A stretch of DNA of 22,949 bases. It comes from Oribacterium sp. Lineage in GTDB: Bacteria; Bacillota_A; Clostridia; Lachnospirales; Lachnospiraceae. Shown piece after piece: positions 4,448-19,434 of the stretch; the first letter of the stretch is position 1; each line of letters begins with the position of its first letter. Made by a program: the position numbers and the translations under genes. The notes under the pieces are model-generated. The model was not told where the DNA came from. It did not search any database and saw only the letters and a program-made list of their open reading frames with translations. Location: positions 1 through 22,949 of the forward strand of contig JAGAXP010000252.1 in NCBI GenBank assembly GCA_017940955.1, written 5' to 3'.

Positions 4448-4488
4448 TTTTCTGATAATTTAATTATGGAAGGGGATTTTTCAGATAA
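4448..4488. promoter_or_regulatory. Two 11-bp direct repeats around the parM promoter (candidate parC)
   Basis: TTTTCTGATAA (4448-4458) and TTTTCAGATAA (4478-4488) differ at one base and are exactly 30 bp apart, about three helical turns. They sit on each side of the -10 box, one touching the -35. A degenerate third copy, CTTTCGATAA, lies at about 4429-4438. R1 parC is built from 11-bp repeats on both sides of its promoter, so these are good candidates for ParR binding, though few in number. Confidence 0.5.
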
Positions 4489-4491
4489 CAA
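4463..4491 (-). promoter_or_regulatory. Promoter of parMR
   Basis: On the minus strand TTGTTA (4486-4491), 17 bp, CATAAT (4463-4468) within CCATAATT, 48 bases before the parM ATG. The -10 block and geometry match the promoters at 9641, 15621 and 18723, but the -35 is closer to normal consensus. Confidence 0.6.
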
Positions 4492-4669
4492 AAATCCTGC
4501 ACATATTAGAGGTATGAGAAGGATCAAATTGTTTCAGACAGTAGCATAATAAACTGAAATTTTTAAACATTCAGTTTTGCCCCTTTTTTTCACATATTTT
4601 CATGGATCCATAAGGTTTTATATACTTTACATATAATCTACAAAACAACAGTAAAACCTAAATAGCTAA
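4492..4669. other. Divergent intergenic region with inverted repeats
   Basis: This is part of the 354-bp space between parM and the 661-residue gene. No gene is seen. It holds two inverted repeats: AAACTGAA (4551-4558) with TTCAGTTT (4570-4577), and AGGTTTTA (4613-4620) with TAAAACCT (4652-4659). Neither is followed by a terminator-like T-run in a useful direction. They may be part of the centromere or operators. Confidence 0.35.
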
Positions 4670-4701
4670 GTGACATTTTTATAATGATTCTGTGTTATAG
4701 T
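4670..4701 (+). promoter_or_regulatory. Promoter of the 661-residue gene
   Basis: GTGACA (4670-4675) is a near -35 box, and TGTTATAGT (4693-4701) forms an extended -10 (TG, one base, TATAGT). The start codon lies 68 bases downstream, with AAAGGAG as ribosome site. Confidence 0.45.
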
Positions 4702-4769
4702 ATAAACATATGATATACGTGCCTATAAAATTGTTCAATTAATTATATAAAGTAAAGGAGCATACCTAT

Positions 4770-6755
4770 ATGGCTATAAAGATAAGAAAATATTCTGGTT
4801 ATTCTGGGGAACCTAGTATTACGAAAAATATCTTATGTGAAGCATATATTTCGCGACGTGATCCGTTCATATTAGCGGTATGCCCACATTGTGGGATTGA
4901 GCAGATTGCTCGATGGGAAAATTATCAAATTTCTTATTTTGCTCGTCGTGCCACAGGCTATGATGGCGATTGCGAAGCACTAAAAGAAAATAAAAAATTA
5001 AAATTACCAACATCTATTTATGCCAAAACTAAAAAAAGAATATTTAACGAGATCACCCAGTTTTTTTCTCCCAATGGTTTTATTTGCGAGTGTTGTGGGC
5101 ATTCCCTTAGCATGGAACCTGGTTATTTATATTCTTCATGTGGAAAATTTTTTGAAGATAACAATAAGAGTTTCCCAGAAGTGTATACAAATCGCGATGA
5201 TGATTATGCGATTCATAATTTAAAATATGTAAATCAAGAAAAATATGAAGCATATAAATGCAAAAAGCCATACGGTGGCAAAATAGATGATGACCAATTC
5301 ATATATACCAACAATTCACTAGCATATGAATTCTGTGAAAAAAATAACATTCCTCATACTCACGATGATAAAACTAGAAATTACATGGAGGAAGGCAGGA
5401 TAGTCACAATAGGAAAGAAAATACTTAGTGGAGATGACTCATATAGCGATAGCTATCACCTTACTGTCGATGAAACATTTGAATTGCTCCGTTTTTACAG
5501 AAAAAAGATGATGGAGATTGAGTCCAAAGAACAAATTAGCATCTTAATTAAAGAGCGTATTGAATTGGCAGAAAATACGGTACTAAAAGACCATGGAGAA
5601 CCTTCTGGCGAAACAAGTTTTCTTAAAAAATATCTTTATAACCTCATTCAAATTGAGACAAATATTGTTTCTCTCTCTGAACGATTGCCTGTACTTTATT
5701 TTACTGAGAAAGAAGCCAGTCGCTTAATATATCAAGTACTAAACTCAAATAGAGAAGAAAAAGTCCTTACAGAGGCCAATAAAAACCTACAAGAAGCAGA
5801 AAGATATTTATTAGTATGTAAGGAGAATGATGATGGATGGCTAGATTATTATAATAAGATCATGGAGAATTACGTTGAAGAACCAATGCCAGAAAAACCG
5901 GAGGAACCAAAAAAGCCAGAGTTAAAAAAGCCAGGATTATTTAATAGAAAAAAAATAGAAGCTGAAAATGCAAGTAAAATATCGGCATATGATACTGCAG
6001 TCGCAGAATGGAAGCTTGCACTGAATAATTATTCCAAAGAGATAGAAAGAATTCAAGAACATAAAGCCAACAAGATGAGTGAAGCAAGGTTGGAGGCAAA
6101 AAACAAAGCAAAATCAGATCATCTTAACGATGTAGAAAGTGCTCAAAGGTTATTAGAAAAGGCTAAGGAGGATCTTGAAAAAGCTAAAACTGAATTAGAA
6201 GAAAAGAATATAGTCCTTCACGAGCCATTGCCAGATAATATTTGGGAACAGGATGTTAATCAGGCAGAAGAAATGCTAAAAAAGTGCATCGATGCCAGAG
6301 TAGCATATGAGAGTATGAATGTTGTTTTTCCAAAGTATCGTAATCTAATAGCATATTCGTCATTTTATGAGTACTTAGAATCTGGAAGGTGCGAAACGCT
6401 GAGTGGTGTGAATGGAGCCTACAATTTATATGAATCTGAACTAAGGCAGAATATGGTGATCTCACAGCTCTCAAAAGTTCTTACGTCCATGGAAGAGATT
6501 AAGGCTAATCAATTCATGGTATATAGTCAACTATCGCGCATGAATTCCAGCCTTGTAAGTCTGAATAGTTCAATGAACAAAGCAGTGTCTTCTCTTGCAA
6601 AAATTGATGCCAATATCAAAAGTATCGATGATTATACAAAGCAGATTGCACATAATACAGAAGTGACCGCTTATAATACAGCGGCAACGGCATATTATTC
6701 AAAAATTAATGCCGAACTTACTAAATCTCTGGGTTATCTTATTGCATTGAAATGA
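4770..6755 (+). CDS. Zinc-finger and coiled-coil protein of unknown function, 661 aa
   Basis: I do not recognise a named function. Near the N-terminus CPHCG (C38, C41) and CECCG (C106, C108, C109) look like two halves of a zinc-binding site. Residues of about 240-500 are mostly charged helix and probably coiled coil, interrupted at about 375-400 by a Pro/Lys-rich linker (repeated KPEEP/KKPEL) and GLFNRKK. The C-terminal 90 residues (about 575-661) have few charges, are rich in Ser, Asn and Ala with heptad-like spacing (LSRMNSSLVSLNSSMNK), and end in KSLGYLIALK; this could be a membrane- or filament-contact helix. No signal peptide. ATG at 4770 has AAAGGAG nine bases upstream. It is transcribed alone, away from parM, and ends at a strong terminator. 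A structural or scaffold role is only a guess. Confidence 0.8.
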   Translation: MAIKIRKYSGYSGEPSITKNILCEAYISRRDPFILAVCPHCGIEQIARWENYQISYFARRATGYDGDCEALKENKKLKLPTSIYAKTKKRIFNEITQFFSPNGFICECCGHSLSMEPGYLYSSCGKFFEDNNKSFPEVYTNRDDDYAIHNLKYVNQEKYEAYKCKKPYGGKIDDDQFIYTNNSLAYEFCEKNNIPHTHDDKTRNYMEEGRIVTIGKKILSGDDSYSDSYHLTVDETFELLRFYRKKMMEIESKEQISILIKERIELAENTVLKDHGEPSGETSFLKKYLYNLIQIETNIVSLSERLPVLYFTEKEASRLIYQVLNSNREEKVLTEANKNLQEAERYLLVCKENDDGWLDYYNKIMENYVEEPMPEKPEEPKKPELKKPGLFNRKKIEAENASKISAYDTAVAEWKLALNNYSKEIERIQEHKANKMSEARLEAKNKAKSDHLNDVESAQRLLEKAKEDLEKAKTELEEKNIVLHEPLPDNIWEQDVNQAEEMLKKCIDARVAYESMNVVFPKYRNLIAYSSFYEYLESGRCETLSGVNGAYNLYESELRQNMVISQLSKVLTSMEEIKANQFMVYSQLSRMNSSLVSLNSSMNKAVSSLAKIDANIKSIDDYTKQIAHNTEVTAYNTAATAYYSKINAELTKSLGYLIALK

Positions 6756-6828
6756 TAAATACATTTAATGCTGAACCTCCTTGCTTTGATTGTTTTTTTT
6801 TGCAACCAGGAGGACGGTTGTAATCCAA

Positions 6829-6864
6829 AAAAAGAGGTCTTTGTGTGAAGAAGACCTCTTTTTT
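6829..6864. terminator. Bidirectional intrinsic terminator
   Basis: AAAAGAGGTCTT (6830-6841) pairs perfectly with AAGACCTCTTTT (6851-6862) around a nine-base loop, with a T-run on both strands. It stops the 661-residue gene from the left and the surface operon from the right. Confidence 0.9.
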
Positions 6865-6950
6865 CATATTGCAATGACTCATTAATTAATAAAAAGTTTT
6901 GTTCATTTTTGAGATTTTTTCTCAGAAAATTTTTGGGGGTTTACCATCAC

Positions 6951-8177
6951 TTAAATATTACCTGCAGTATTTTCAGCCAGTATCTTCTTTTCTTTTATCT
7001 TTCTTGTCACAATGATAGATATAAGTCCTGCGACAAGAACGAGAGGTATAGTTGTGGCAATAGGTCTCTCAGTGAAGGATTCAATAACTGCACTGTAAGC
7101 TGCCGTAATGGTACCAACTACGGAATCGAGAACGCCTAAGAGACCGCCTCTTGACTGAGCGACTGTTGGATCAACTGTGTAGGTGGCATTTGTGACCATG
7201 GTGTACAGAGTATTACCTTCCGGGAATTCTTCTGTGTATGTGCATCTCCATGATTTTTCCGGCATAGCGGGGAGAGGTACGTCTGCTTCATAAATAGCCT
7301 TTATGTCCTTTACGTACTTTCTGCCCTTTGCAACAGCATTTCTCATGGTGTTTCCGTTAACCATGTATGCTTCACCGTCCCACTTTATGGATTCGATCTC
7401 ATAAGCCTTTGTGCTAAGGTCGAGCATCTTTAAGAATTCGTCCTTATACTTGATAAGTTCTGCATCTGCCGGTATTTCTATTCCGTTAAGGTTAAATACG
7501 TTTGCATCGCCGTAGCCTGATACTGTTATGGGGAATTCAAAGTCGTTGTCCCAGTATTCTTTAAGTACCTCTCCTTTTACAAGGTCGAGGGTAGCTTCAA
7601 ATTCCTTACCGGATGCTTTATCAGACATTTCTATAACCGTTTTTTCAGGAACTTTAACTTTATCTTCTACAGATGTGTATGTGACCTCTGTAGACTTATG
7701 CTCTTTTCTGTCTTTAACAGCTCCCTCAATCAGAGTTTTAGATGTGAGGTTATACTTAACGCCTTCTTCGAAAATTGAAGGGAATGGCTGGTTAGATTCG
7801 TTTGTCTCTTCGCCAAGAAACGTATCAGTAACTATTGTCTTTACAAGCGGCTTTACTGTTTCCTGTGATATAAAGGTTGGAGTTTCAGTATTGCTTACTA
7901 TGAATGGTATGTCATTAATAAGAACCGGCTCATCCAGTATTTCCTTTGGATCTTTTTCTTTATCGAATGTGGTGTATACGGTTTTCTGTTCAAATGAATG
8001 TGTGATTCTGTTTACAGAAACCTTTGAGGTATCGAAACTCGCAGCCTTTTCCAGTTCGCTATAGCGTTCTGCGGTGTTTTTAACTTGATTGTTTGTATTA
8101 GCCTGGGCTGTCAGAGTTCCTGATAAGCTACTTACAGCTATTGCTCCAACTGATAAGAATGTCACTAATTTACGCAT
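6951..8177 (-). CDS. Exported membrane-anchored surface protein, 408 aa
   Basis: No family recognised. The protein starts with a signal peptide (MRKLVTFLSVGAIAVSS, probable cut after TAQA near residue 27). A beta-rich, Thr/Val/Lys/Glu-rich extracellular region follows. Near the C-terminus are a weakly hydrophobic Gly/Ala-rich stretch (LLGVLDSVVGTITAAYSAV) and a true membrane segment (IATTIPLVLVAGLISIIV) followed by a Lys/Glu-rich cytoplasmic tail, so it is probably held in the membrane with its bulk outside. I placed the start at the ATG at 8177 because it gives a clean signal peptide and has GGTGAAGG upstream; an in-frame start at 8255 would put 26 extra residues before it. The gene overlaps the upstream TasA-like gene by eight bases, so both are made together and may form one surface complex. 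Confidence 0.78.
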   Translation of the reverse strand: MRKLVTFLSVGAIAVSSLSGTLTAQANTNNQVKNTAERYSELEKAASFDTSKVSVNRITHSFEQKTVYTTFDKEKDPKEILDEPVLINDIPFIVSNTETPTFISQETVKPLVKTIVTDTFLGEETNESNQPFPSIFEEGVKYNLTSKTLIEGAVKDRKEHKSTEVTYTSVEDKVKVPEKTVIEMSDKASGKEFEATLDLVKGEVLKEYWDNDFEFPITVSGYGDANVFNLNGIEIPADAELIKYKDEFLKMLDLSTKAYEIESIKWDGEAYMVNGNTMRNAVAKGRKYVKDIKAIYEADVPLPAMPEKSWRCTYTEEFPEGNTLYTMVTNATYTVDPTVAQSRGGLLGVLDSVVGTITAAYSAVIESFTERPIATTIPLVLVAGLISIIVTRKIKEKKILAENTAGNI

Positions 8178-9591
8178 TTCCTTCACCTTTCTTTTTCTTT
8201 CCACTAAATAAAAGTCCAAGGAATCCAAAAATTGAGATACCTCCAAGCATTGCAAACGGGAACACGTCTCCGGTCTTATAGTTTCCGGCTATGTCTCTGT
8301 CAGCACCCTTAACGTCTTCACCATCTCTGAATGCGTAGTAGATACCGTCTTTTCCTAAAAGTGATGCATCATTTGAGGTGAGCTTGTTTCCCTTTGAATC
8401 CTTTGCCCCTGGTCTGTAGTTTGCCTTTATATCACCTATTACCTGTGAGATTGAGTCTGAGAAGGGGAGATTCTGGATGATTGAGGGAATCTCTATAGGT
8501 CTGTCCACTCCGAGTACTGACGGACCGTTGGGATCATATGTATTAAAGTCAGTTCCGGGACTACCGCTGCCTCCGGATCCACCACTTGTAGTATTATTAG
8601 AATAAATATCCCATGAAACAGAGTAATCCTGCATCATCGTAGAGTTAGGCATATTCTTATCAACTAAAAGAGTTACTAAGTACTCCTGGAATCTGTCCTT
8701 GCCAATTATGCCGAGGTTTATGTCTTTTTCTAAGTCATCACCGTAAAGAGGGCCCGAATAAACAACTTTTTCATCAGTGCCTTCGGTGCTTAAACGTTTT
8801 ATTTCAACGTTTATCCATTTATTTAAGGAAGTATCTTTATCATTGTTGTCAGATGAAAGTCTGATAGAAATAGGTCTGTTATACTCATTCTTGATGGTAA
8901 TTTTCTCTGAAACAGTATCTCCAGGCATGAGAGATCGGAAATTCTTGAAAAGATCGTTTGACTCATTCATCTCACCATCTTCTATGTCCTCAAAAGTAAT
9001 ATGGAAACCTGAATCACCTGAATCAGATCTTACGGAATCACCAAAAGATGCGTGGGACTGTATTTCTACATCACCCCATGGGGATGTGGATGTGAAGTCA
9101 GGAGTAAAGTTTGCAGACTGCACGGCATCAGCATCAACGCTCACTGATACGGGAACTCCAGTTGACTCGGGGAATTCTGGCATTACAAGGCTGGTACAGA
9201 AATCGGTAAGAGAACCGGTCTTAACGGGTTCTGTGTAATACCAGTAATCACCCTGCTTTACCCATTTATCGCTTACACCTCTAAGCATACTGTCATCAAC
9301 ACCATCAAATTCGCCGGTGTATTTGAGCTTTAATCTTATATAAGCCGGTGATAAGTCATTCTTTACGCTTACGATATACGATACTTCTTCCGTAGGGTGC
9401 AGACTTACTTCATATGGATCTACTCGGTTCCCGCTTTCGTCCAGCATCTTCTGTTCCAAACCTATCTGGATTCCACCAGTCTTAAGGATTGCATCTACTG
9501 TGCCGGCGTATGCAGGGGCACTTCCAGGTATTCCCATCATGGAAAGGCAGAGAGCTGTAGCAGCAAGTTTTACTGCAATATTTTTCCTCAT
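8170..9591 (-). CDS. TasA/camelysin-like exported surface protein with sortase-like tail, 473 aa
   Basis: A secreted or wall-linked protein. The signal peptide is MRKNIAVKLAATALCLSMM with a cut near APAYA-GT (residue 29). Residues of about 30-175 fit the TasA/camelysin (SipW-exported) beta-sandwich pattern: HPTEEVSYIVSVKNDLSPAYIRLKL, then KQGDYWYYTEPVKTGSLTDF, then DADAVQSANF. A second, related module begins with LMPGDTVSEKITIKN (about 222-236). A Gly/Ser-rich linker (about 340-352) leads to a C-terminal domain and ends NYKTGD, a hydrophobic stretch and KKKKGEGNA, a layout like an LPxTG wall-sorting tail but without the Leu-Pro. TasA-type proteins form biofilm fibres; a fibre or adhesin role here is inference. 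It leads a two-gene operon from the shared ACTAAT/CATAAT promoter. Confidence 0.7.
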   Translation of the reverse strand: MRKNIAVKLAATALCLSMMGIPGSAPAYAGTVDAILKTGGIQIGLEQKMLDESGNRVDPYEVSLHPTEEVSYIVSVKNDLSPAYIRLKLKYTGEFDGVDDSMLRGVSDKWVKQGDYWYYTEPVKTGSLTDFCTSLVMPEFPESTGVPVSVSVDADAVQSANFTPDFTSTSPWGDVEIQSHASFGDSVRSDSGDSGFHITFEDIEDGEMNESNDLFKNFRSLMPGDTVSEKITIKNEYNRPISIRLSSDNNDKDTSLNKWINVEIKRLSTEGTDEKVVYSGPLYGDDLEKDINLGIIGKDRFQEYLVTLLVDKNMPNSTMMQDYSVSWDIYSNNTTSGGSGGSGSPGTDFNTYDPNGPSVLGVDRPIEIPSIIQNLPFSDSISQVIGDIKANYRPGAKDSKGNKLTSNDASLLGKDGIYYAFRDGEDVKGADRDIAGNYKTGDVFPFAMLGGISIFGFLGLLFSGKKKKGEGNA

Positions 9592-9640
9592 CTTTAAAAC
9601 TCCTTCTATGAAAAATAATTCTTGTATGTTCTACTCAGTA

Positions 9641-9669
9641 ATTATGGGAAGTCTTTTTTACGTATTAGT
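9641..9669 (-). promoter_or_regulatory. Shared-type promoter of the TasA-like operon
   Basis: On the minus strand ACTAAT (9664-9669), 17 bp, CATAAT (9641-9646) in CCATAATT, 50 bases before the start codon, with an A-rich block (TTATAAAAAT) just upstream. It is one of three copies with the same two hexamers and the same spacing. Confidence 0.65.
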
Positions 9670-9703
9670 ATTTTTATAAGAAATTTTCAGAAAATTGTGC
9701 CCC

Positions 9704-9746
9704 GTTTCATGAGGTACCGCCTAAGGCTAAGCAAAAGAGCCGAAAC
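9704..9746 (+). other. Nested hairpin element of unknown role
   Basis: GTTTC (9704-9708) pairs with GAAAC (9742-9746), enclosing GGCT (9725-9728) with AGCC (9738-9741) and a GGTACC. It lies in the 262-bp divergent gap between the TasA-like operon and the 9854 gene. I see no match to a riboswitch I know. Confidence 0.3.
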
Positions 9747-9775
9747 ATAATTATGGCTTTTCTGTATTTCTGATC

Positions 9776-9793
9776 TGGTTTAAAATTAAACCA
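9776..9793. promoter_or_regulatory. 18-bp palindrome, candidate operator
   Basis: TGGTTTAA, AA, TTAAACCA: perfect 8-bp arms about 60 bases before the 9854 start codon and just upstream of a TAAAAT -10-like sequence. It is well placed for repressor or activator control of the two plus-strand membrane-protein genes. Confidence 0.5.
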
Positions 9794-9853
9794 AGATTAA
9801 AATATGGAACGTGAAAACTAAATTAGTAAACAATATTTCTGGAGGGGCAAATT

Positions 9854-10630
9854 ATGAAAAAGCTAAATATAACCCCTATATTTGCAGTGCTTGACATTGT
9901 TCTCTTGGTGGTAATTCTGATTTCCCTTAGACCTTCTAAGGATAAAGTGATCGAGGAAAGTTTATCGGAAAGTAAATATGAAAGTATTGATGAAACAGAG
10001 GATTTTAATTCCGGTATTACAGATACGGAATATGAAACTCCTGTTGAGACAAATATGGAAGAAACCGTCATAACGGAGGAATTCGATCCTGTTGAAGAAA
10101 CCGGCCAGGCAGAAACGACTGAGGACTATTGGCTAAATCCTGGCACGGAAACGGAAGGATCCACTGAAAAGAGTATCCGAGACCTCTCTTCTTTCGATAC
10201 CCATGATCTTCCGCATATAAAAGATTTCAAATGGGTCACAGTAGAAGTCCTGAGCGGAGAACTCCCCTCAGAAGCTGAAAAGATAAGCTTTGAAGACTCT
10301 TTCGGTGGATGGAAATGTTATATCATCGATGATGCGACCGAAATGGAAAGGCTTGCCAACGTGGAAATCAGCGGAACGCTCGAGGATCTTGAACTAGGTA
10401 TTGACTGGTATTACATAAGAAGAGGCGGAAAAGGCGGGGAAAACTATGAAGATACCACAGAGGACTCCGTTTTTCGTGGCTATGTAAATGGCAACGGCGA
10501 TATCGAAGCAGAGGGCCAAGGAAAGATCCGCATGACGGATATCTTTACGATCGGCGACCATATGTATGCATCCGGAAAGTTACACTGGCCGGATGGAATC
10601 GTAGGATACCTGTTCCTTGTGAGACCGTAA
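9854..10630 (+). CDS. Single-pass membrane protein with acidic linker, 258 aa
   Basis: No family recognised. An N-terminal membrane segment (about residues 8-26, IFAVLDIVLLVVILISL) preceded by KK suggests an anchor with the rest outside the cell. Residues of about 30-115 are very rich in Glu, Thr, Ser and Asp, a typical disordered spacer. The C-terminal 130 residues form a compact beta-rich domain (WVTVEVLSGELP, FGGWKCYIIDD, MTDIFTIGDHMYASGKLHW). The ATG at 9854 has GGAGGGG six bases upstream. Twelve bases separate it from the next gene, which is also a single-pass membrane protein, so the two are one operon and may act together outside the membrane. An 18-bp palindrome lies upstream. Confidence 0.8.
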   Translation: MKKLNITPIFAVLDIVLLVVILISLRPSKDKVIEESLSESKYESIDETEDFNSGITDTEYETPVETNMEETVITEEFDPVEETGQAETTEDYWLNPGTETEGSTEKSIRDLSSFDTHDLPHIKDFKWVTVEVLSGELPSEAEKISFEDSFGGWKCYIIDDATEMERLANVEISGTLEDLELGIDWYYIRRGGKGGENYEDTTEDSVFRGYVNGNGDIEAEGQGKIRMTDIFTIGDHMYASGKLHWPDGIVGYLFLVRP

Positions 10631-10642
10631 GGAGGAAGAAAT

Positions 10643-13105
10643 ATGGCAAACTTCTGCAAAAATTGTGGTTCAAAAATTAATCCGGGAGCCAAATTCTGCG
10701 ATAATTGCGGACAGCCTGTATCTCCCACTACGGACATAAATGATCGGAGAAATGTAGGAAACACAGGTTCTTCAGCATTTCCAAATGTTTCAGACAGTCC
10801 AATATATACAAATAATATGAGAAGGATTCAGCCGAATCCTGGTCGTAGACCGAACAATAAAAAACCTTTTGATATAGTGCTTATCGGAATATTTGTAGCG
10901 GAACTTTTAATAGTCTTGTTCTGGCATCCTGGCTTGTTGCTTTCAGGAAATAAAACTCCTAAAGAGGAAGAAAAGAAAATCGTGACACAGAAGGATGTAC
11001 CTGTGGTCGTAGATTCTATGCGTTCTAATACTCTGAAGCTTGAGAAAACATGTGTAAGTTTTGGAGATACAGAGACCGGAAATGCAGTTTTGACACCTGA
11101 TCTTTTCGATATTAGTGAATCAGGAGATACACAGATTTATAATCTTGCTTTTACAGAGATTCCCAAGGAGCCGTTTACGCTTGAAATGGAAGTCCCGCAG
11201 CCGGCAGAGGGAGAAGCATATACCTGCCAACTTGGAATTCCTGTCAAAGACAATAAAGGGAAAGAATATTTTGAAACGATTCCAGTTAAAACACAATGGG
11301 AAAATGGCAAAGTTAAAGCAAGTGTTTCCTTGGACGGAGTCGATGATTATCTTTCAAACATAAGCTATGACGCTGGCGGTGAGATGACGGCAATCTGTAT
11401 AAACCGGATGGAAGAATTAGCAAAAGACATCACTTTAGCTAATACATTATCTACCGGGTTAGCCCGTGCTGGAAAGCTTGGTGCTGCCGTAATATTCTAT
11501 TTTTCAAAAGAGCAGACCATATCGTCACCAAATGGACGTTTTCTTCTTCATATTCCAGATAAGTACTTTGATGAGACCAATACAGAGAAAGATAAGGTGT
11601 ATATGGAAGATGCAGAGAATTATAGTGCTGATATGGAAGAAATATATAACTACTATGCCACGAATTATGATGTTAAAAAACGTACATACTGGCCAATGGA
11701 TGTATACTTCGATCAATTAAGTGATAGTGTGGCCCTTTTTGATCCGCTAGGTATAACTATTGGGGGTCGATTTGGGTATGACGGTATCGATCATGGTTTT
11801 ATGAAAATCAATGTAGAGTACCTTAAGACCGGATATAAACGTACAAAAAACACTGAATTAGTTGGCAAAAATGGAAATAAAGTAAAAATTAAAAATTTAA
11901 ATCTTAACGTAACGAAACTTTATGGCGCTTTTGCTCATGAAATGTTCCATTTTGTGCAGCGCTGTTATGTGGATTCTGGTGGCACTCAGAGATGGTTTGA
12001 TGAGTCAAGCGCAGCATACTTTGATTCGCTCTTCACCGGAAAAAGAAATGATTTTCAGTTGGAAGAAAACTATAAAGCTGAATGGCAGGATCAATTTTCT
12101 GTTAAAACAAATGATTCCACGACTTGGGGAAGAAAATACGGTAGGATGCCGGTATTTTGCTATATGATGAAGCGTAATAAAGATTCCCTAAAGCGGGCTT
12201 ATGAATTTCTTCGGGATACCGGAGGCTACACAGATTGGAAAAATGTGTTTGAGTATGCGATGGGAACGACAATGGCACCGTTTGTAAGAGCATACTTTCA
12301 GGCACTGGTAACGAAGGGAACACTGTATTCGAAATATAATACTCCATGGGAAATATATAAAGGCCCAATCAGCAGAGATGATAACCAGCAAAAAATAGAT
12401 ATGGCTGCATGGAATGAGCTTCGTTATACGGAAATAATAAAAGACATTGAACCGACAGATGAAGAACAGAAAAACAGTGAATTGACAGGAAAATACACTA
12501 TTCCGGCATACGCTGCAAGATTTGTCATCCTTGACACATCAGAACTCCCTGATGAGGATGTTACTTTGAAAGTATCGCTTAAAACTCCTTCTGTTGATGG
12601 AACACTTTATAAAATCGAGGGAGATTCCTATGACAAGGTTACATATAATGAGATCCCATCAGAGAAAGAAACCCGCATGGCTGTTAAAAAAGGTGACAAA
12701 CTACTGCTCATGCTTGTAAATGAGAAAGATAGTGATTGCTATGGAAGGGTCACGTACAGTCTGGAGAATATCAATATCACGTCATTCATCGGACACTGGT
12801 CTGAGGAAGATAAGGATGTTCCATTGCAAATAATTATTACAGACTATTTTGTAAGAAGATATTATGCAAATTATGATGATCTGAATACAGTGCGTGCTTT
12901 TGATACGGGTGAACGTGAAATTATTTCTTATGAAGTGAATGGAAATGAGCTTAGCATTATCGTGCATCTTCAAAAACAACAAGATTGGGTTAGATCTAAA
13001 TGCAGATTTCGGTTGAAAGATAAAGATCATTTGGAAGTTTTCTGGGGGTATGATGCAGATAATGTTACTCCTTCATATACCATGATCCGCGTTCCATCAA
13101 AATAG
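10643..13105 (+). CDS. Zinc-ribbon, membrane-anchored HExxH metallopeptidase-like protein, 820 aa
   Basis: The N-terminal FCKNCGSKINPGAKFCDNCG (C5, C8, C19, C22) is a zinc ribbon common in Firmicute membrane proteins. A Pro/Asn-rich linker and one membrane segment (about 76-100) follow, so most of the protein should lie outside. In the middle, HEMFH (H432-H436) and, 18 residues later, the Glu of WFDESSAAY (E454) form the zinc-binding set of a gluzincin-type peptidase; catalytic E433 is present. Two beta-rich parts follow, the last (about 710-820, starting SFIGHWSEED) resembling a small lipocalin-like barrel. The start has GGAGGA upstream. The neighbouring 258-residue protein may be its partner or substrate. 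The peptidase call rests on the motif and its setting and has not been tested by a profile search. Confidence 0.78.
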   Translation: MANFCKNCGSKINPGAKFCDNCGQPVSPTTDINDRRNVGNTGSSAFPNVSDSPIYTNNMRRIQPNPGRRPNNKKPFDIVLIGIFVAELLIVLFWHPGLLLSGNKTPKEEEKKIVTQKDVPVVVDSMRSNTLKLEKTCVSFGDTETGNAVLTPDLFDISESGDTQIYNLAFTEIPKEPFTLEMEVPQPAEGEAYTCQLGIPVKDNKGKEYFETIPVKTQWENGKVKASVSLDGVDDYLSNISYDAGGEMTAICINRMEELAKDITLANTLSTGLARAGKLGAAVIFYFSKEQTISSPNGRFLLHIPDKYFDETNTEKDKVYMEDAENYSADMEEIYNYYATNYDVKKRTYWPMDVYFDQLSDSVALFDPLGITIGGRFGYDGIDHGFMKINVEYLKTGYKRTKNTELVGKNGNKVKIKNLNLNVTKLYGAFAHEMFHFVQRCYVDSGGTQRWFDESSAAYFDSLFTGKRNDFQLEENYKAEWQDQFSVKTNDSTTWGRKYGRMPVFCYMMKRNKDSLKRAYEFLRDTGGYTDWKNVFEYAMGTTMAPFVRAYFQALVTKGTLYSKYNTPWEIYKGPISRDDNQQKIDMAAWNELRYTEIIKDIEPTDEEQKNSELTGKYTIPAYAARFVILDTSELPDEDVTLKVSLKTPSVDGTLYKIEGDSYDKVTYNEIPSEKETRMAVKKGDKLLLMLVNEKDSDCYGRVTYSLENINITSFIGHWSEEDKDVPLQIIITDYFVRRYYANYDDLNTVRAFDTGEREIISYEVNGNELSIIVHLQKQQDWVRSKCRFRLKDKDHLEVFWGYDADNVTPSYTMIRVPSK

Positions 13106-13126
13106 TAAATGAAATCTGATACAATA

Positions 13127-13172
13127 AATATTGAAAGAGGGCTGTCATGTGAGATAGCCCTCTTTCAATATT
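13127..13172. terminator. 17-bp perfect hairpin between convergent genes
   Basis: AATATTGAAAGAGGGCT (13127-13143) and AGCCCTCTTTCAATATT (13156-13172) pair perfectly around a 12-base loop. It lies between the convergent peptidase-like gene and the InlB-like gene and probably ends both transcripts. T-runs are short, but the stem is long. Confidence 0.8.
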
Positions 13173-13185
13173 GTTTCAGAAAAGA

Positions 13186-15567
13186 TCAATAGTTATAATT
13201 CAGCGTCAGCTTCTTGTCCTTCATTCCGTTCGTTGTTCGGATAGAAATCTCGTTTGTTCTCTTAGCTGTACCGAAGTATCCAAGCTCATCGTTAGGGATG
13301 ATCTCTGCGTCATCACTACTATTGCCACCATTACCATCATCACCGCCTGATGGGTTATCGTCAGGCTCCCGATCAGTGTTACGGATCTTCTTCCACTGTG
13401 CGCGGAGTGTAACTGACTCTGTAAGGTCTGTTATTGTTGCCCCGTTCTTGTAGAATGTACCGAACATGTCCTGCTTTGTGGTGTACCATCCAACGAAGCT
13501 GTAACCATCCTTTACAAATCCATTCTGAGGGAGTGTTACGCTTTCTCCGGATTTTACGGTGATAGCATCCATTGAACCGCCTGTATGTCCGTTACCATCG
13601 AAGTTGATTGTATAAACACCATTACCCCAAGTTGCTGTAAAGGTCTTATTTCCGTATGAACCTAAAGGTACGGAAAGATCTGTTGTTGCACCTGAGATTC
13701 CTGTGCCGGTCCAGCCAGAGAAGGAGAAGCCCTTCTTTGTCGGATTCTCGATATAGAAAGTCGGAGTCTCGACATTATAGTAAAGCTTCTTATAATCAAT
13801 CCTACCGCCGTTAAGGTTGTAGGTGATTGTATAAGTGATTGGGTGTACTTCTGGAGTCTTCGTAACAGCCTGTGCCGGCATTGTGAATGTAAAGCTCTGG
13901 TTTGTATTACCGTCAGACCATTTATCAAACTTATATCCGTTTAAAGGAGTCGCCTTAAGTGTGATTGTCTGACCATAGTAATAGCTTCCTGTCACGGTTG
14001 ATCCGGATGTACTTACGCCTGTGTCCGTACCGAGAGTAAATGGGTACTTATTTCTTGTATAGTAGTACTTAAACACTCTTGAACCGTCTGCAGAGATCGT
14101 TTGTGTCTGTGTCTTAGGTGATGTGAAACCTGTATATGTCTTTACTGATGGTGTGACACTGGAATCTGATTCACCTGTTTTACTTTCAGTATCTGCCAGC
14201 GTATATCCGTTGCCGGTTACGTTTTGCTGATAGTGCTCTATCTTATATTGTGTATCGGATCTTGGTGACCACTGAGCATAATAGTTTGCGTCACCTGAAA
14301 CCTTTGTACTCGAGGCAATTTTTGTACCGTTGATTGATGAGGTATACCATCCTTTGAAGTCATAACCTTTTCTTTCTGCGGTAGGAAGTGTGCCGAGGGT
14401 AGAATCATAAGCCTTTGTCTGAGATTCTGAGCTTACAGTTCCGCCATTACCGTTAAATTTGATCGTATAGTTTATTGGACTCCATTGAGCATAGTATGTT
14501 ACATCTGAAGATGGCTGTGTATATGTTCCACCATCTGCTGTTATGAATGTACCGCCAGATGGTTCAGTATACCAACCGTTACTGTTGTAGCCTGTGCGGG
14601 TTGATTTAGGTGCCGTTTTGGTTTCATTTGGTGATCCGGTGACGGTACCTCCATCAGAACCATTGTTTCCATTAAATGTGACAGTTACCGTGTTCATCAT
14701 TTCGGCGGCTGTTGCCATATGTGAAGACTCCCACAGTATTTTGTCATAATACTCACCTTTGGATTTTGTGGCGCCTTCAGCATATCCAACAACATAGAAC
14801 ACAGGGGTTAAGCCGACACCGTTCTTACCACCATTATTTATTTTTACGTCAACTGTAATATCATAGCTGTAGCCGGTAGCGTAATCTTCACCACTATATC
14901 TATGTGAAGATGTTTTGGTGAGGTTGTAGCTTATCACTTCATACTGACCACTCATTGAGTTTAAGTAATCCCTTTTTGTTTCTGTCGAGGAAGAACTTGT
15001 GCCTGAGTGCTCCCAGGTTGTTTTGGTTGAAAAGGATTTAATTCCACTTCCACTTGAAAATGTAACCTCACCGCCCTTAAGGAATGTGTATCCTGAACCG
15101 CTACTGCTTGAGTATTTTCCTCCGGAATGCCTCATTTCAGTATTAGATTTATCACGAGGGTTATTGTAACTTGTGTTGTTACCGTATACTACCTCATCAT
15201 AATAATTTGAATAATATGGTGTGATCAAACCGAATGACATGGATAAACCAGACCATCTTGACTCGTAAGTAAATGTACTATTCCAATCAGTATAGTCCGG
15301 GGTTTGTCCCGTCATTCTTACGCGGACCCAGCCAGACCCTTTATCCGATGCTGAGAATGTGAAATCACCGCCGTCATCTCTGACGCTCACGGTACTGCTG
15401 TCAAAATTAAGCGCATATGCCTTAATTGGCGATAGTATTTCGGTCAGTAAATATATCACAATGAATAATGCTATCAGCACTTTGGGTAATATATTCTTGC
15501 CTGTCATCATTCTTTTAAATATCATTCCTGGATATTTAAAATAAGATGACTTATATGCTTTGCCCAT
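13186..15567 (-). CDS. InlB-repeat surface protein, 793 aa
   Basis: A large exported protein. The N-terminus has a basic start and one hydrophobic stretch (about 28-46), with a possible signal-peptidase cut at IKAYA-LN (residue 53). About 240 residues of Ser/Tyr/Gly-rich beta sequence follow. Then come repeats of the InlB B-repeat/List_Bact_rpt type, each with a GY-x-F-x-GWY core and ending in YYAQW or similar: about 300-365, 366-436, a MucBP-like unit (436-507, YKIEHYQQNV), a divergent repeat (508-575, GYKFDKWSDG), then about 576-650 and 651-725. The tail is Asp/Gly/Asn-rich and ends KKLTLNYNY, with no LPxTG and no second membrane segment. The ATG at 15567 has AGGAGG seven bases upstream. 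It is transcribed alone from the shared promoter. An adhesin or attachment role is inferred from the repeats. Confidence 0.85.
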   Translation of the reverse strand: MGKAYKSSYFKYPGMIFKRMMTGKNILPKVLIALFIVIYLLTEILSPIKAYALNFDSSTVSVRDDGGDFTFSASDKGSGWVRVRMTGQTPDYTDWNSTFTYESRWSGLSMSFGLITPYYSNYYDEVVYGNNTSYNNPRDKSNTEMRHSGGKYSSSSGSGYTFLKGGEVTFSSGSGIKSFSTKTTWEHSGTSSSSTETKRDYLNSMSGQYEVISYNLTKTSSHRYSGEDYATGYSYDITVDVKINNGGKNGVGLTPVFYVVGYAEGATKSKGEYYDKILWESSHMATAAEMMNTVTVTFNGNNGSDGGTVTGSPNETKTAPKSTRTGYNSNGWYTEPSGGTFITADGGTYTQPSSDVTYYAQWSPINYTIKFNGNGGTVSSESQTKAYDSTLGTLPTAERKGYDFKGWYTSSINGTKIASSTKVSGDANYYAQWSPRSDTQYKIEHYQQNVTGNGYTLADTESKTGESDSSVTPSVKTYTGFTSPKTQTQTISADGSRVFKYYYTRNKYPFTLGTDTGVSTSGSTVTGSYYYGQTITLKATPLNGYKFDKWSDGNTNQSFTFTMPAQAVTKTPEVHPITYTITYNLNGGRIDYKKLYYNVETPTFYIENPTKKGFSFSGWTGTGISGATTDLSVPLGSYGNKTFTATWGNGVYTINFDGNGHTGGSMDAITVKSGESVTLPQNGFVKDGYSFVGWYTTKQDMFGTFYKNGATITDLTESVTLRAQWKKIRNTDREPDDNPSGGDDGNGGNSSDDAEIIPNDELGYFGTAKRTNEISIRTTNGMKDKKLTLNYNY

Positions 15568-15620
15568 TGCTTCTCCTCCTATATTTTCGTCAATATATTT
15601 TCTCTTTTTCGTACTTTCTA

Positions 15621-15649
15621 ATTATGGGAGGGGTTCTTTTGTTATTAGT
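15621..15649 (-). promoter_or_regulatory. Shared-type promoter of the InlB-like gene
   Basis: On the minus strand ACTAAT (15644-15649), 17 bp, CATAAT (15621-15626) in CCATAATT, 54 bases before the start codon, with AAAAAAA immediately upstream of the -35. Confidence 0.65.
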
Positions 15650-15665
15650 TTTTTTTCGAGATTTT

Positions 15666-15706
15666 TTGAAAAAAAATTCTGGCTCAACCAAAAGGAGCCA
15701 GAATTT
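15666..15706 (-). terminator. Intrinsic terminator of the nhaC remnant
   Basis: AAATTCTGGCTC (15674-15685) pairs with GAGCCAGAATTT (15695-15706) around a nine-base loop. On the minus strand the stem runs into eight T. It ends the antiporter transcript just upstream of the InlB-like promoter. Confidence 0.88.
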
Positions 15707-15725
15707 GAAAAAGTTATTCTTTTGT

Positions 15726-17017
15726 TTAGCTTTTCTCATACCTTGCCGAACGTAACCTGTAAATAGGAAGTAACAAGAGATAGAATGAAGCAAATATTGC
15801 TGTTGAAGGTGCACCTACTGTGGCCAAAGGAACAGCTCCGGCTATTGACCATGGAATTAATGGTGCGATAACGACTGCTGTATCTTCCAGATCAACAGCG
15901 AGTTTATCCTTTTCTTTATATAGTCCGCTGCAAAGCTGATTACAGAGAAGGATTGTAAGGGTCTGGTTGCATGCAATTATAGCTGAACCAATTGAGGAAC
16001 AGAATAATGCAGTGAAGCGGTTAGTTTTACCGGCCAGGGAGGAAACTGAATGCTTTACGTTATCAAGGAGCCCTGTCCTATTAAAGATATCTGAATAAGA
16101 TGATGATATGCAGACTATTAATCCGCTCTTCAGCATGGAAAGCACTCCTCCACCGCTAAGCATAGAAGAAAGAGCCTCCTCCTTTGGAGTGAAACCTGTT
16201 AGTGCAGTATTTAATATCTCCATGAAAGATATATGTTGGGCAAAAAGGCAGATAGGTATTGCGGAAAGTATGCTTAGCCCCATGGCAATCTTAACATTAA
16301 CATGTAAAATGCTAAGAAGCATAATGGTGACTGCGGGCAGTACAGTGATCCATTCGAGTTTGAAGGAAATAGAAAACAGATCCTTTAGATCCATAACGGG
16401 ACCTTCAGCGGAAACTGATGAACCTATTGCAAAATATATAACGCAAGTTGCAATGAAGGTATTAAAGAAGTACGGATCATTCCGCGGATATTCTTATAGA
16501 TATCTGTACCGGTGATTCCTGCAACAAGTAATGCACTTGTTGAGACCGGAGAACATCTGTCGCCGAAAAAAGCACCGGATAAGACAGCACCTCCGGTCAG
16601 CATCGGACTTATTCCCATTGTGGAACCCATGGAGGCACAGATCACTCCCATTGTTGCCGAAGTACCAAAGGACGTTCCGGTCAGAACCGAGAGTCCGCTG
16701 TTAAGAAGAAAAGTCATAAGAAGAAAAATGGATGGTCTAATAAGGGTTGAAGCCTTAGAGACAATAAAAGGAATGGTTCCTGAAGCCCTCCAGAGTGCAG
16801 TCATCACACCTATAAGGATAAAAGTGATCAATATATTACTAACGGTTTTGATTCCTTTGATTGCCATGGATATAAGAGACTTCCAGGAAAATCCTTTATG
16901 TCTTCCGTAAAGCATAAACAAAACAAGTCCAGCTAATAGGGCATAGATTATTGAAATATTAAGCGATATACAAAGCAAAAGACTTATGCAGAATAGTCCT
17001 AGCACTAAATATTTCAT
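15726..17017 (-). pseudogene. nhaC: NhaC-family Na+/H+ antiporter, broken by a frameshift
   Basis: Two adjoining reading frames together make a full-length NhaC-type antiporter of about 430 residues, a membrane protein that swaps Na+ for H+. The first part (17017 to about 16470) carries the family's GTSFGTSATMGV and GDRCSPVSTSALLVAGITGTD segments. The second frame, entered at about 16465-16475 (reading FFNTFIATCVIYFAIG), carries the rest, including SSSYSDIFNRTG, the helices around CNQTLTILLCNQL and LIPWSIAGA. The total span is 1292 bases, one short of a whole number of codons, so one missing base explains everything. Without it translation stops at 16424 after 197 residues. No slippery heptamer is evident, so a recent mutation or a sequencing error is likelier than programmed frameshifting. 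It has its own terminator. Confidence 0.85.
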
Positions 17018-17192
17018 AAGGTTAAATCTCCATCAGTTCGAGTTATTTCCATAGTTTAATAGTAGTTAGATTATCACAAAGGATATCTGATAGAAAGAAG
17101 TCTTCTCCCTTTTCTCCATAATGCCAATATTATTTCTGAGACCTTTATGGTAATCTAAGCACATTCTTTGTTAGATCTGAGGATATATAATA

Positions 17193-17735
17193 ATGGAAAT
17201 GATTATTTTTTACTGTGTTGCCCTTATGTTTGGAGCTGTGGGAGCTTTATTCTTTTACTATCCGTTTCAACAGGGCTTCGACACAAAAGAAAAGATTTTA
17301 TATATTGCAATCGGTACTTTTTTTGCAGCATTATCTTTCTCAATGTTTACAAAGAATGCCGTAATTGGAGGAACTCTTCTATCATTATTAATGGGAGGAG
17401 TAACGCTATCGTTTGGGTTACATGAATCCTACTCTGTAATGACACACCATATAAAAACAGAGGGAAAGCTCGTAAATGTTGATAAACACCGTTCTTCAAA
17501 GGGCAGCGTTTACTATTCTCTGGACTTTAAGCTTGACGGAGAACGGGAAAAGTATACAGTTGACCATATTTCGTCCACTAAGAAATACAGAATAGGAAGC
17601 TCTTACAAGATTTTTATATCAAATCATGATCACGAAGCATATATACACCGTGCATGGTGGTTTTTTATAAGCATAATATGTATTTTTATGGGCATAGTCT
17701 GGTTTCAGCTGATACCGAAGCTTTTTTCTATGTAA
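17193..17735 (+). CDS. DUF3592-like membrane protein, 180 aa
   Basis: A small membrane protein. Two or three hydrophobic segments lie in residues 2-75 (MIIFYCVALMFGAVGALFF; IAIGTFFAALSFSMF; GGTLLSLLMGGVTLSFG). A soluble beta domain follows (about 88-145, GKLVNVDKHRSSKGSVYYSL, then KYRIGSSYKIFISNHDHEAY), and a last membrane helix ends the protein (about 152-173). The order TMs, a short G-x-V-x-x-V strand set, then a TM resembles DUF3592-type proteins, whose role is not known to me. The ATG at 17193 has GAGGA nine bases upstream. It is divergent from the nhaC remnant and convergent with the small membrane protein at 17817. Confidence 0.72.
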   Translation: MEMIIFYCVALMFGAVGALFFYYPFQQGFDTKEKILYIAIGTFFAALSFSMFTKNAVIGGTLLSLLMGGVTLSFGLHESYSVMTHHIKTEGKLVNVDKHRSSKGSVYYSLDFKLDGEREKYTVDHISSTKKYRIGSSYKIFISNHDHEAYIHRAWWFFISIICIFMGIVWFQLIPKLFSM

Positions 17736-17782
17736 TTTACAGCATGGATTGCAAGACAAGGGGAAATGGTTTTTGCTATGCG

Positions 17783-17807
17783 AAAAAAGGCTCCATAGCT
17801 GGGAGCC
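17783..17807 (-). terminator. Intrinsic terminator of the ParA-like operon
   Basis: GGCTCC (17789-17794) pairs with GGAGCC (17802-17807) around a seven-base loop, followed on the minus strand by six T. It ends the 18679-17817 operon. Confidence 0.82.
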
Positions 17808-17816
17808 CGGTAAAGC

Positions 17817-18077
17817 CTAAAATTTTAAGATACTTAACAGTATCTCTCTTGAAGAAGGATTCAGTAAAACAAGGAGCCCTAAAAATACTAGTACGAGGAA
17901 TACTGCAGAAAAAGCAATGTGTGAGATTTCCTTTATGTAGTCACTGACGCTCTTTTTCTTAACAACTATGTCATCAGTAGACCGTATCACTCCGGCTTCT
18001 TCGCTAAGTAGAAGATTTTCTTTTAACTGCTTCTCTTCTTCCTCAATCCTTGTCATTAGGATTGGCTTATATCTCAT
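17817..18077 (-). CDS. Small single-pass membrane protein, 86 aa
   Basis: No family recognised. Residues 1-48 are charged (EEEEKQLKENLLLSEE) and probably cytoplasmic; one strong membrane helix follows (about 52-73, IAFSAVFLVLVFLGLLVLL), then a short tail. The ATG lies two bases after the stop of the ParA-like gene, with GAAAGGGG as ribosome site inside that gene's end, so the pair is tightly coupled. A membrane partner or anchor for the ParA-like protein is a reasonable guess. Confidence 0.75.
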   Translation of the reverse strand: MRYKPILMTRIEEEEKQLKENLLLSEEAGVIRSTDDIVVKKKSVSDYIKEISHIAFSAVFLVLVFLGLLVLLNPSSREILLSILKF

Positions 18078-18079
18078 CT

Positions 18080-18679
18080 TTAGCCCCTTTCAACGCGCAG
18101 CATAACGGCACTCATTACCTGTTGGAAATAGTCTTCTTTGGATTCGTCCATCTGTACGAAGGGATCTGGAAAGTAGGGAGAAAAGAATGTTTCGTTCTTT
18201 TTCCGCCCCATATTTAAAAGAAGTTCTTCATTATCTCCTTCTTCAACAAAAGAAAACACGAAGAATGCTTTCTGCATTTCATTGTCACGTAGAGCATTTT
18301 CTGTTTCGACTAATTCATTTGCTTTGATACCACCAACGAGGATAGGTATTCCTCCGTGAAGAAATTCCTTTCTGTCGAATCTTTTGTCATTAACACAGCC
18401 ATGATCGATAATAAGGAAATCGAGATTTGAGCCGCCTTTCTTTATATCAATGTACTTATGCCTTGGGATCACATCTATACCCTGTACGCTTATAATTCCT
18501 GTATCTTTTTCTTCATAATCGGAATAAACGTTATTGGTGTTCTTAATGTAATTCTTGTCGTTCATTTCCATGTATGCTACATCATAGTCCATAGATTTAA
18601 TGAACCTTGTAAGCTGTACTGCCTGAGTGGTAGTTCCTATGCGGTCAATACATCCCGCAACATTAATAAAAGCAATCAT
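18080..18679 (-). CDS. ParA/MinD-like protein with degenerate P-loop, 199 aa
   Basis: The N-terminal strand and loop, FINVAGCIDRIGTTTQAVQLTRF (split here by function: strand 2-8, loop 9-18), sit where ParA/MinD ATPases have KGGxGKTT; here both lysines are missing and only Gly15 and the three Thr remain. The next strand (YDVAYMEMND) and LDFLIIDHG (the Walker B-like position), then IPILVGGIKANEL, follow the family order. The protein is shorter than typical ParA (about 250), resembling the atrophied MinD/CpaE/TadZ-like proteins found near pilus or conjugation genes. It may not hydrolyse ATP and may act as a docking protein. It is followed at two bases by a small membrane protein and starts from the shared promoter. 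The family call is by pattern, not by profile search. Confidence 0.6.
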   Translation of the reverse strand: MIAFINVAGCIDRIGTTTQAVQLTRFIKSMDYDVAYMEMNDKNYIKNTNNVYSDYEEKDTGIISVQGIDVIPRHKYIDIKKGGSNLDFLIIDHGCVNDKRFDRKEFLHGGIPILVGGIKANELVETENALRDNEMQKAFFVFSFVEEGDNEELLLNMGRKKNETFFSPYFPDPFVQMDESKEDYFQQVMSAVMLRVERG

Positions 18680-18722
18680 CTTGTCCTTCTTTCTGCTTTT
18701 TTCTCAAAATCTTACTTAAAGA

Positions 18723-18751
18723 ATTATGGGAGAAATTCTTTGCATATTAGT
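18723..18751 (-). promoter_or_regulatory. Shared-type promoter of the ParA-like operon
   Basis: On the minus strand ACTAAT (18746-18751), 17 bp, CATAAT (18723-18728) in CCATAATT, 44 bases before the start codon, with CCAAAAAAT upstream. It is the third copy with exact hexamers and spacing. Confidence 0.65.
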
Positions 18752-18826: not shown

Positions 18827-18858
18827 AAACTATTATTAATATGTAAAGGATTGAAATG

Positions 18859-19434
18859 ATGGGACGACCAAAGGAATTTGACCGTAAAGATGTGCTGATT
18901 AAAGCAAGGAATCTCTTCTGGAAAGAGGGATATGAAAAAGCATCTCTTGGGGACCTTCTCGAAACTATGGGAATCCATAGGAAGAGTCTTTATGATACCT
19001 ATGGGAGCAAAAAAGAGCTTTTTATAGAGGCACTTCAAAGCTACCATGATGAGGTAGCGGAGTTCATGGCAAACAAGTCAAATATCGCCAAAAACGGTAT
19101 AGATAAAATACGCTCTGTATTTGAGAGCAGTATGAAACTGGACGGTGGCCAGCAAAGGGGATGCATGATTATCAACACAGCGGCAGAAAGCTTTGAAGAT
19201 GATGCGGAAATAAGGGACTTGATCAAAAAATGGGATTTGGAGATGACGAACTCATTTTACAGTTTCCTGATGGAAGCAAAAGATGAAAAACTCATCTCCG
19301 ATGAAGTAGATTTGATGGATAGGGCAAAATTTCTGAACAATGCCTTTATAGGATTTCGTGTACAGTTAAAAATGAACCGGACAAAAAACGAGATGAACAA
19401 GCTGATCGAACAAAGCATCAGAGCCGTATGCTAA
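18859..19434 (+). CDS. TetR/AcrR-family transcriptional repressor, about 191 aa
   Basis: The N-terminal domain (about residues 3-50, MGRPKEFDRKDVLIKARNLFWKEG..., split motif) ends in the helix-turn-helix SLGDLLETMGIHRKSLYDTY. The C-terminal ligand domain includes QRGCMIINTAAE, a phrase common in the NemR/YcdC-like branch that senses reactive or small organic compounds; a Cys lies in it. Two ATGs are adjacent; I prefer 18859 (MGRPKEF), eight bases after AAAGGA, over 18856. The nitroreductase gene follows after 20 bases in the same operon, and two matching palindromes precede the gene, so it most likely represses itself and the nitroreductase until an electrophile or quinone-type ligand binds (inference). 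Confidence 0.9.
   Translation: MGRPKEFDRKDVLIKARNLFWKEGYEKASLGDLLETMGIHRKSLYDTYGSKKELFIEALQSYHDEVAEFMANKSNIAKNGIDKIRSVFESSMKLDGGQQRGCMIINTAAESFEDDAEIRDLIKKWDLEMTNSFYSFLMEAKDEKLISDEVDLMDRAKFLNNAFIGFRVQLKMNRTKNEMNKLIEQSIRAVC

Follow-up and report, generated by a model that had tools for sequence, protein, structure and literature searches.

The 22,949-nucleotide stretch of Oribacterium sp. DNA analyzed here (the window) on balance probably belongs to a large plasmid-like element of rumen bacteria, with an Oribacterium-type host, and much of the element's backbone would be expressed from two dedicated promoter classes that its own divergent sigma factor would read. Three exact copies of ACTAAT, 17 bases and CATAAT, here called class I, and a fourth site with a different -35 region, here called class II, stand ahead of minus-strand operons in the window, the class II site preceding parM, which encodes a ParM-like actin homologue. 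That the sites of both classes are promoters we regard as near certain, and they are two classes sharing one core. Genome-wide searches covered 295 genomes; the one nearest to the window, G001, has 39% of sampled words in common with it. Three contigs recur below: C74 (71.9 kb) and C25 (21,202 bases) from G001, and C48 (20,651 bases) from the genome G005. The four promoters are as follows, with the transcription start (+1) predicted from a conserved purine 35 bases past the first base of the -35 element.

4463-4491, minus strand: class II promoter (TTGTTATCTGAA-AAATCCCCTTCCATAATT) of parM and the downstream gene, predicted +1 at 4456 (A).
9641-9669, minus strand: class I promoter of an operon for secreted proteins of 473 and 434 (or 408) amino acids (aa), predicted +1 at 9634 (G).
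15621-15649, minus strand: class I promoter of the gene for a 793-aa protein with Listeria-Bacteroides repeats, predicted +1 at 15614 (G).
18723-18751, minus strand: class I promoter of an operon for proteins of 199 and 86 aa, predicted +1 at 18716 (A).

The three exact copies of ACTAAT-N17-CATAAT in the window compare with a mean of 0.01 in 100 dinucleotide shuffles, none of which reached three. All are on the minus strand, each is followed by an operon in the same direction, with 49, 53 and 43 bases (in coordinate order) from the end of the -10 element to the start codon, and each has A-rich sequence upstream, essentially as an earlier sequence-only reading of the window had described them. 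Bare hexamers with two mismatches are no better than chance (7 in the window against 5.25 expected, with as many in 31 of the 100 shuffles), and a matrix that includes the spacer was therefore used instead. This class I matrix of 43 columns, trained on 22 sites from eight G001 contigs, returned only the three exact sites from the window (scores 46.4, 44.7 and 37.8); the same reading had found no further copy among the intergenic gaps that it compared. The top score over seven control stretches was 7.7, and the reversed sequence of the scanned contigs gave no match above 12. The window's three sites are orthologous to three of the training sites, so that their recovery is only partly independent. 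Class I is less cleanly separated when the matrix is cut to its first 35 columns, since two control stretches then score 17.3 and 12.7 and two orphan sites 12.1 and 11.0. The controls throughout are seven or eight stretches (168.6 kb in the class II scan), mostly around loose hexamer matches rather than entire chromosomes.

In G001, ACTAAT-N16-CCATAAT with at most one mismatch occurs 26 times, against 8 for the reversed pattern. Twenty-two of these sites are concentrated in eight contigs; the other four, in three large contigs, served as controls and were outside the training set. The 22 training sites share a layout of A-tract, ACTAATA, conserved spacer, CCCATAATT and purine start. Within the spacer, A stands at register 12 (21/22) and 14 (22/22) and C at register 16 (16/22) and 18 (18/22), none of which played any part in site selection. 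A refined pattern allowing three mismatches gave 31 matches in G001 against 5 reversed, 15 against 8 in G005, 8 against 5 in G013, and 3 against 6 in G016. At two mismatches, all 25 G001 sites lie in nine contigs that make up about 197 kb of roughly 4.0 Mb, and C74 holds ten of them, all on one strand; in total there are about 27 class I copies in G001. The exact hexamer pattern has 61 matches in 44 of the genomes searched. When only the spacer is scored, 12 are positive (nine in G001, two in G005, one in G013) and 49 negative, and the nine from G001 keep a spacer score of at least 1.2 when left out of the matrix one at a time. One good class I-like site, with one mismatch, was also found in G016 (C36:4828). 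The sites are nearly restricted to genomes carrying the element. The sequence-only reading had expected the motif, allowing one mismatch, to cluster on the element ahead of conjugation, pilus or surface operons rather than to be as common ahead of unrelated housekeeping genes; it does cluster in G001 contigs ahead of transfer and surface operons, and conserved-spacer sites are nearly absent from related genomes, the 12 positives among 61 exact matches falling in three genomes.

The parMR promoter has TTGTTA at -35 with CCATAATT and the 17-base spacing retained, which the earlier reading had seen correctly. That reading had also counted it as the same promoter type as the other three, and this had to be given up: the -35 and the leader differ, and the site belongs to a second class. 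A scan of ten G001 contigs with the shared core alone (spacer and -10) gave 44 matches and none in the reversed sequence. By the criterion of TTA or CTA followed by T in the -35 region, 15 of the matches are class II; 25 are class I-like and four belong to neither class (C74:41513, C25:839, C25:12361 and C49:13330). The same scan of eight control stretches found two forward matches and one reversed. The 15 class II sites, picked by eye among the core matches, have the consensus NNNTTATCtGAAaWATCCCCTYCCATAATT, with TG at -1/+1. A matrix trained on them found 24 matches and none reversed in 217.6 kb of the ten G001 contigs, 15 being the training sites themselves and one the class I site C35:11121. 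It found eight forward and one reversed in 184 kb of the window and its relatives, and one of each in the controls. In the window it returned the parMR site alone, whose core and -35 are identical to those of a C74 training site; the same stretch stands ahead of the C74 parM. A strict class II pattern gave five exact matches among all genomes (four in G001 and one in G005) and none reversed. A 40-base stretch is shared at 90% identity between window positions 4449-4488, at the parMR promoter, and C74 positions 4271-4310, at the promoter of a gene for a 1050-aa SpaA-domain surface protein; in it TTATC(T/A)G is repeated at about -32 and about -2.

The classes have in common the spacer and -10, A.AWCCCCTYCCATAATT, as well as the position of their purine start. 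What separates them is the -35, with ACTAATA at register 0-6 and an A-tract in class I, and TTATCtGAA, its TTAT at register 3-6, in class II. With the last T of CATAAT set as -7, 43 of the 44 class I sites have a purine at +1, as do all 31 of class II, and T stands at -1 in 26 and 27 of them, respectively. The +1 position lay outside the patterns and matrix columns used for finding sites; the two site lists were compiled by hand from several scans, and C25:12361 was entered as class I despite a -35 of ACAAAA. In G001, 26 of the 27 class I sites and 22 of the 23 in class II are followed within 330 bases by a possible start codon with ribosome-site-like sequence, by a loose rule that admits some doubtful short frames and on lists likewise hand-compiled from several scans; three class I sites in G005 and G013 have no following start. 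The sigma-A -35 TTGACA is absent from both classes (ACTAAT in class I, NNNTTA in class II), while CATAAT matches the sigma-A -10 TATAAT at five of six positions and the spacing is 17. The transcripts differ as well. AGT[CA]AT occurs within 45 bases of the start at 21 of 31 class II sites and at 1 of 44 class I sites, against a background of 3%, and 20 of the 21 class II words lie at +13 to +20. A 7-base form of this leader element is present at 2 of 22 class I sites when a longer stretch is considered. In class II the element is often AAGTCATnTGGAG-like, for example at the sites L034:4989, L034:6703, L117:12944 and L117:14658; parMR transcripts are without it. By eye, several class II leaders (about 90 bases) can be folded as hairpins followed by T runs, in the manner of attenuators, and Rfam at its gathering threshold gave no match in the window, L034, L117, L031, L030, L033 or L122.

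The genes behind these sites, assigned partly by profiles and for the remainder by eye, extend well beyond the window. Class I sites in G001 precede a type IV secretion operon (PrgI and TraG-ATPase), a coupling-protein operon, TraX, a sortase, two signal peptidases (one behind another gene), a lysozyme-NlpC/P60 protein, a transglutaminase-like protein, an HTH_36/DnaD-like protein and the orthologues of the window's three operons. Behind class II sites are parM, a Mob_Pre-type relaxase that we take to be MobV-like, SSB, a DnaG-type primase, DNA polymerase III alpha (1204 aa), RecJ, a PcfJ-like protein, a SpaA-domain surface protein and a sortase match below threshold. As a tendency, class I serves mainly transfer and envelope genes, and class II mainly replication, repair, relaxase and partition genes. 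The earlier description of the targets as partition-like and surface proteins is too narrow, for transfer, replication and repair genes are included too. Its proposal of one regulon coupling segregation to surface display is not supported, because parMR belongs to the second class with the other -35 and the proposal lumps the two together. G001 has two genes for DNA polymerase III alpha (L037:4105-7320 and L128:3747-7361), of which just the one for the 1204-aa protein follows a class II site.

Two proteins encoded by relatives of the element are candidate readers of these promoters. One is a 368-aa divergent member of the sigma-70 family, encoded on C25 and on C48, about 6 kb from a coupling-protein gene in both cases, such that the sigma, the coupling protein and class I sites are found on one contig in G001 and again in G005. 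It matches Pfam Sigma70_r2 (E-value 1.6e-5, 25.0 bits against a cut-off of 24) and has no Pfam region 4 match; a sigma70-ECF profile aligns over residues 117-301 at 28.8 bits, below its cut-off of 42.9. A profile of the protein searched against solved structures finds sigma factors, with SigB the best (E-value 0.0018). Of 172 matches in a structure search with its AlphaFold model, the best 50 are sigma factors or sigma-containing entries; the entries ranked 1 and 3, RPSB-RPOC and RPSD-RPOB, are presumably sigma-B and sigma-D of B. subtilis, with which the length agrees. In a profile alignment its region 2.4 is unlike that of a housekeeping-type sigma factor at the residues that read -12. Among the 295 genomes only G001 and G005 have strong matches; weak 22% matches in G130 and G167 did not recur with the alignment. 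A search of 5.8 billion protein sequences at an E-value of 0.001 gave six relatives, the search being word-based so that distant ones may be missed. PLSDB gave no match with the sigma, and viral contigs yielded no relative of it and no exact class I or class II pattern. One sigma relative (P0002) and one relative of the 199-aa protein (P0008) are each listed with a contig of 148,877 bases, which suggests that their genes are located together.

The other candidate is a 257-aa fusion (L126:3568-4341), encoded on the same contig as the sigma, of a sigma region 4 (Sigma70_r4, E-value 5.8e-8) and the C-terminal domain (CTD) of the RNA polymerase alpha subunit (RNA_pol_A_CTD, E-value 6.4e-19). Close copies are limited to G001 and G005 among the genomes searched. 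The protein search with the fusion gave five sequences having both domains, four close and one distant. In PLSDB it hit 65 records, none covering 80% of it, and the 20 matches listed cover the alpha-CTD end.

Before weighing how the sites are read, we consider their surroundings, for which the best comparison is between the window and C74, a contig that carries a type IV secretion operon and replication genes. The two share six long blocks in the same order at 91-96% identity, and the genes between the blocks differ. The homology stops at 9687, 18 bases upstream of a class I site, and resumes at 13185; it stops again at 18759, 8 bases upstream of another, and resumes at 20319; and a further break, at 4546, is 55 bases upstream of the promoter of parMR. 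The remaining class I site (15649) is inside a continuous block. Since several breaks fall just upstream of sites, at least some of the promoter-plus-operon units behave as backbone modules. The plus-strand genes at 4770-6755, 9854-13105 and 18856-20309 behave as exchangeable cargo without class I or class II promoters. At the promoter of the 473-aa gene the window and C74 disagree at many spacer positions, with ACTAATA and CCCATAATT unchanged. The C74 promoter for the 199-aa protein has ACTTAT and TTCCATAATT, from which it follows that consensus positions drift too.

Judged from the sequences, the element's own sigma is the likely reader of the promoters, and a non-standard reader is plausible in general, because a divergent sigma factor is found in relatives of the element. 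We suppose that the 368-aa protein would direct the host RNA polymerase to the core shared by both classes. The two -35 elements differ in sequence and in register, so that a single region 4 is unlikely to read both; the 257-aa fusion may supply an alternative contact to the -35 and the A-tract, and in this way select class I. The position of the class I A-tract is one where alpha-CTD commonly binds. To judge from two relatives, the window's own element would also encode both factors. The chief competitor, which we consider possible and rather less probable, has the host sigma-A reading all of these sites with the help of one or two activators or repressors of the element at the -35 and spacer, the 368-aa sigma serving elsewhere. 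The -10 and spacing are compatible with it, CATAAT being one change from TATAAT and 17 bases a standard spacing, two DNA-binding activators would easily account for two -35 elements over one core, no site lies ahead of the sigma gene, and orphan sites occur in two genomes, G013 and G016, that yielded no sigma. It is at odds with the -12 position, where sigma-A prefers T and all 22 class I and all 15 class II training sites have C (the search pattern itself required this C), with the conservation of the spacer down to the -10 in both classes, and with a sigma in the relatives whose region 2 is unlike that of housekeeping sigmas. That the 368-aa sigma alone reads both classes, the class difference coming from other regulators or having no regulatory meaning, seems improbable: it would fit the shared spacer, -10 and start site, but neither the change in sequence and register from ACTAATA to TTAT nor a leader element so largely confined to class II. 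Least credible of all, we think, is that the repeats all derive by copying from a single ancestral upstream region, or represent a recombination site that spread with modules, rather than being selected promoters. The breaks in homology close to two of the three class I sites are what such copying might leave behind, but the third site is within an unbroken block, the flanks and the non-consensus spacer positions vary from copy to copy while the consensus positions hold, 74 of 75 sites have a purine at the expected start, and nearly all of the G001 sites are followed by a possible start codon by the loose rule given above.

Several observations weigh against the proposal that the element's own sigma reads two dedicated classes. 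The invariant C at -12 was in part selected by the search pattern. The AlphaFold model of the sigma is of moderate quality (mean predicted local distance difference test 67.5, predicted template modeling score 0.45), and the matches among the best 50 of 172 extend over most of the protein but superpose poorly, with query template modeling scores of 0.12-0.25 and root-mean-square deviations of 17-27. No class I or class II site is directly upstream of the sigma gene, as autoregulation would lead one to expect. Both factors are found in only two genomes, in one of which, G005, the fusion copy has an in-frame TGA and there is no close copy of the VirB4 of C74 (30% identity at best). G013 (77% complete) has class I sites, and neither sigma, close fusion nor close coupling protein was found in it; in G016 (97% complete), with the class I-like site C36:4828, sigma and close coupling protein were not found. 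Given the missing coupling protein in both, and the incompleteness of G013, the sites there may be orphan remnants. The functions of the targets overlap, class II sites preceding the SpaA protein, the weak sortase match and the PcfJ-like protein, and a class I site the HTH_36/DnaD-like protein. The contigs that we treat as the element were chosen for holding sites, the plasmid status of each is assumed, and certain genes on them resemble chromosomal genes or cargo. Finally, co-occurrence is weak proof, as sigma, fusion and promoters may merely share one element.

A more ambitious version of our preferred account, which we offer tentatively and hold to be rather unlikely in all its parts, is of a conjugative megaplasmid with two-branch transcription. 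One sigma would serve about 50 promoters, and the fusion would replace the -35 contact at the branch with A-tract and ACTAAT, switching between transfer and surface functions on the one hand and replication and maintenance, with the common 5' leader, on the other. Control of conjugation genes is usually ascribed to repressors, activators or quorum signals that act on promoters of the host sigma. If our account is true, a plasmid that brings its own sigma and two classes of promoter would be nearly self-sufficient in transcription, which could affect the host range of rumen megaplasmids and the timing of their genes. The long promoter signature would allow such elements to be recognized specifically in metagenomic DNA, and the fusion of sigma region 4 with alpha-CTD would be a test case for contacts to the -35 and to UP elements.

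The nearest published case that we found, going by the portion of the report available, is SigN (ZpdN) of the B. subtilis plasmid pBS32, a plasmid-encoded divergent sigma-70-family factor with a plasmid-restricted regulon of many operons and a consensus of its own, described there as a single consensus, with control by LexA, autoactivation of the sigN promoter, and death of the cells when DNA is damaged (PMC6751061). The likeness, as far as that portion shows, would lie in a divergent sigma-70-family factor that probably serves many operons of one plasmid-like element through a consensus peculiar to it, here known from sequence alone; unlike the published system, ours has two promoter classes, transfer and replication targets, a sigma region 4/alpha-CTD fusion, and no site before the sigma gene. 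The middle promoters of phage T4, where AsiA and MotA appropriate sigma, are a second parallel, again on the available parts of the sources (PMC6755090, PMC2988021). There, too, a protein encoded by the element helps to read promoters through an altered upstream contact, but the phage factors redirect the host sigma, whereas relatives of our element encode a sigma and the fusion would be a candidate second reader of the -35. Among the publications on plasmid sigma factors, conjugation and rumen megaplasmids that we consulted, SigN comes nearest, which is no proof that closer cases are absent from print.

The large rumen Clostridia plasmids pCY360 (Butyrivibrio proteoclasticus) and pRUMAL01 (Ruminococcus albus) have ParM proteins 34-35% identical to that of the window. 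Their class I hexamers with at most one mismatch number 1 and 0, against 1 and 2 reversed, which is no excess over background, and the class II matrix on 31 kb of each gave one match, at threshold (15.5, in the pRUMAL01 piece). A search of both for a sigma relative at an E-value of 0.1 was empty, an answer not informative by itself.

The genes behind the window's four promoters, and two of the variable cargo segments with their gene content, are the following.

3225-4415, minus strand: ParM-like actin homologue (Pfam Alp7A_like_C, E-value 2.6e-7).
2353-3234, minus strand: 293-aa protein in the ParR position, its gene overlapping parM, no Pfam match.
8170-9591, minus strand: 473-aa protein, by eye secreted and membrane-anchored, first gene after the promoter at 9669, no Pfam match.
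6951-8255, minus strand: 434-aa protein, by eye secreted with a C-terminal anchor, second gene of that operon; an internal start giving 408 aa may be likelier.
13186-15567, minus strand: 793-aa protein with List_Bact repeats (Pfam Flg_new, E-value 1.5e-40).
18080-18679, minus strand: 199-aa protein, P-loop-like by eye, no Pfam match.
17817-18077, minus strand: 86-aa protein, a membrane protein by eye.
9854-13105, plus strand: variable cargo between two backbone blocks, genes for proteins of 258 and 820 aa, no class I or class II site.
18856-20309, plus strand: variable cargo, a TetR-type regulator and a nitroreductase.

Neither the class I nor the class II matrix has a match in the C74 segment between about 46 and 72 kb. 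Within the first cargo segment, the 820-aa protein (10643-13105) has an N-terminal zinc ribbon and, by eye, a HEMFH motif like that of zinc proteases. A gene of the Na+/H+-antiporter type at 15726-17017 is split into two frames in the window and is a single 430-aa frame in C74. At 966-1588, between backbone genes, a PIN-domain protein and a small upstream partner have the look of a VapBC-type toxin-antitoxin pair.

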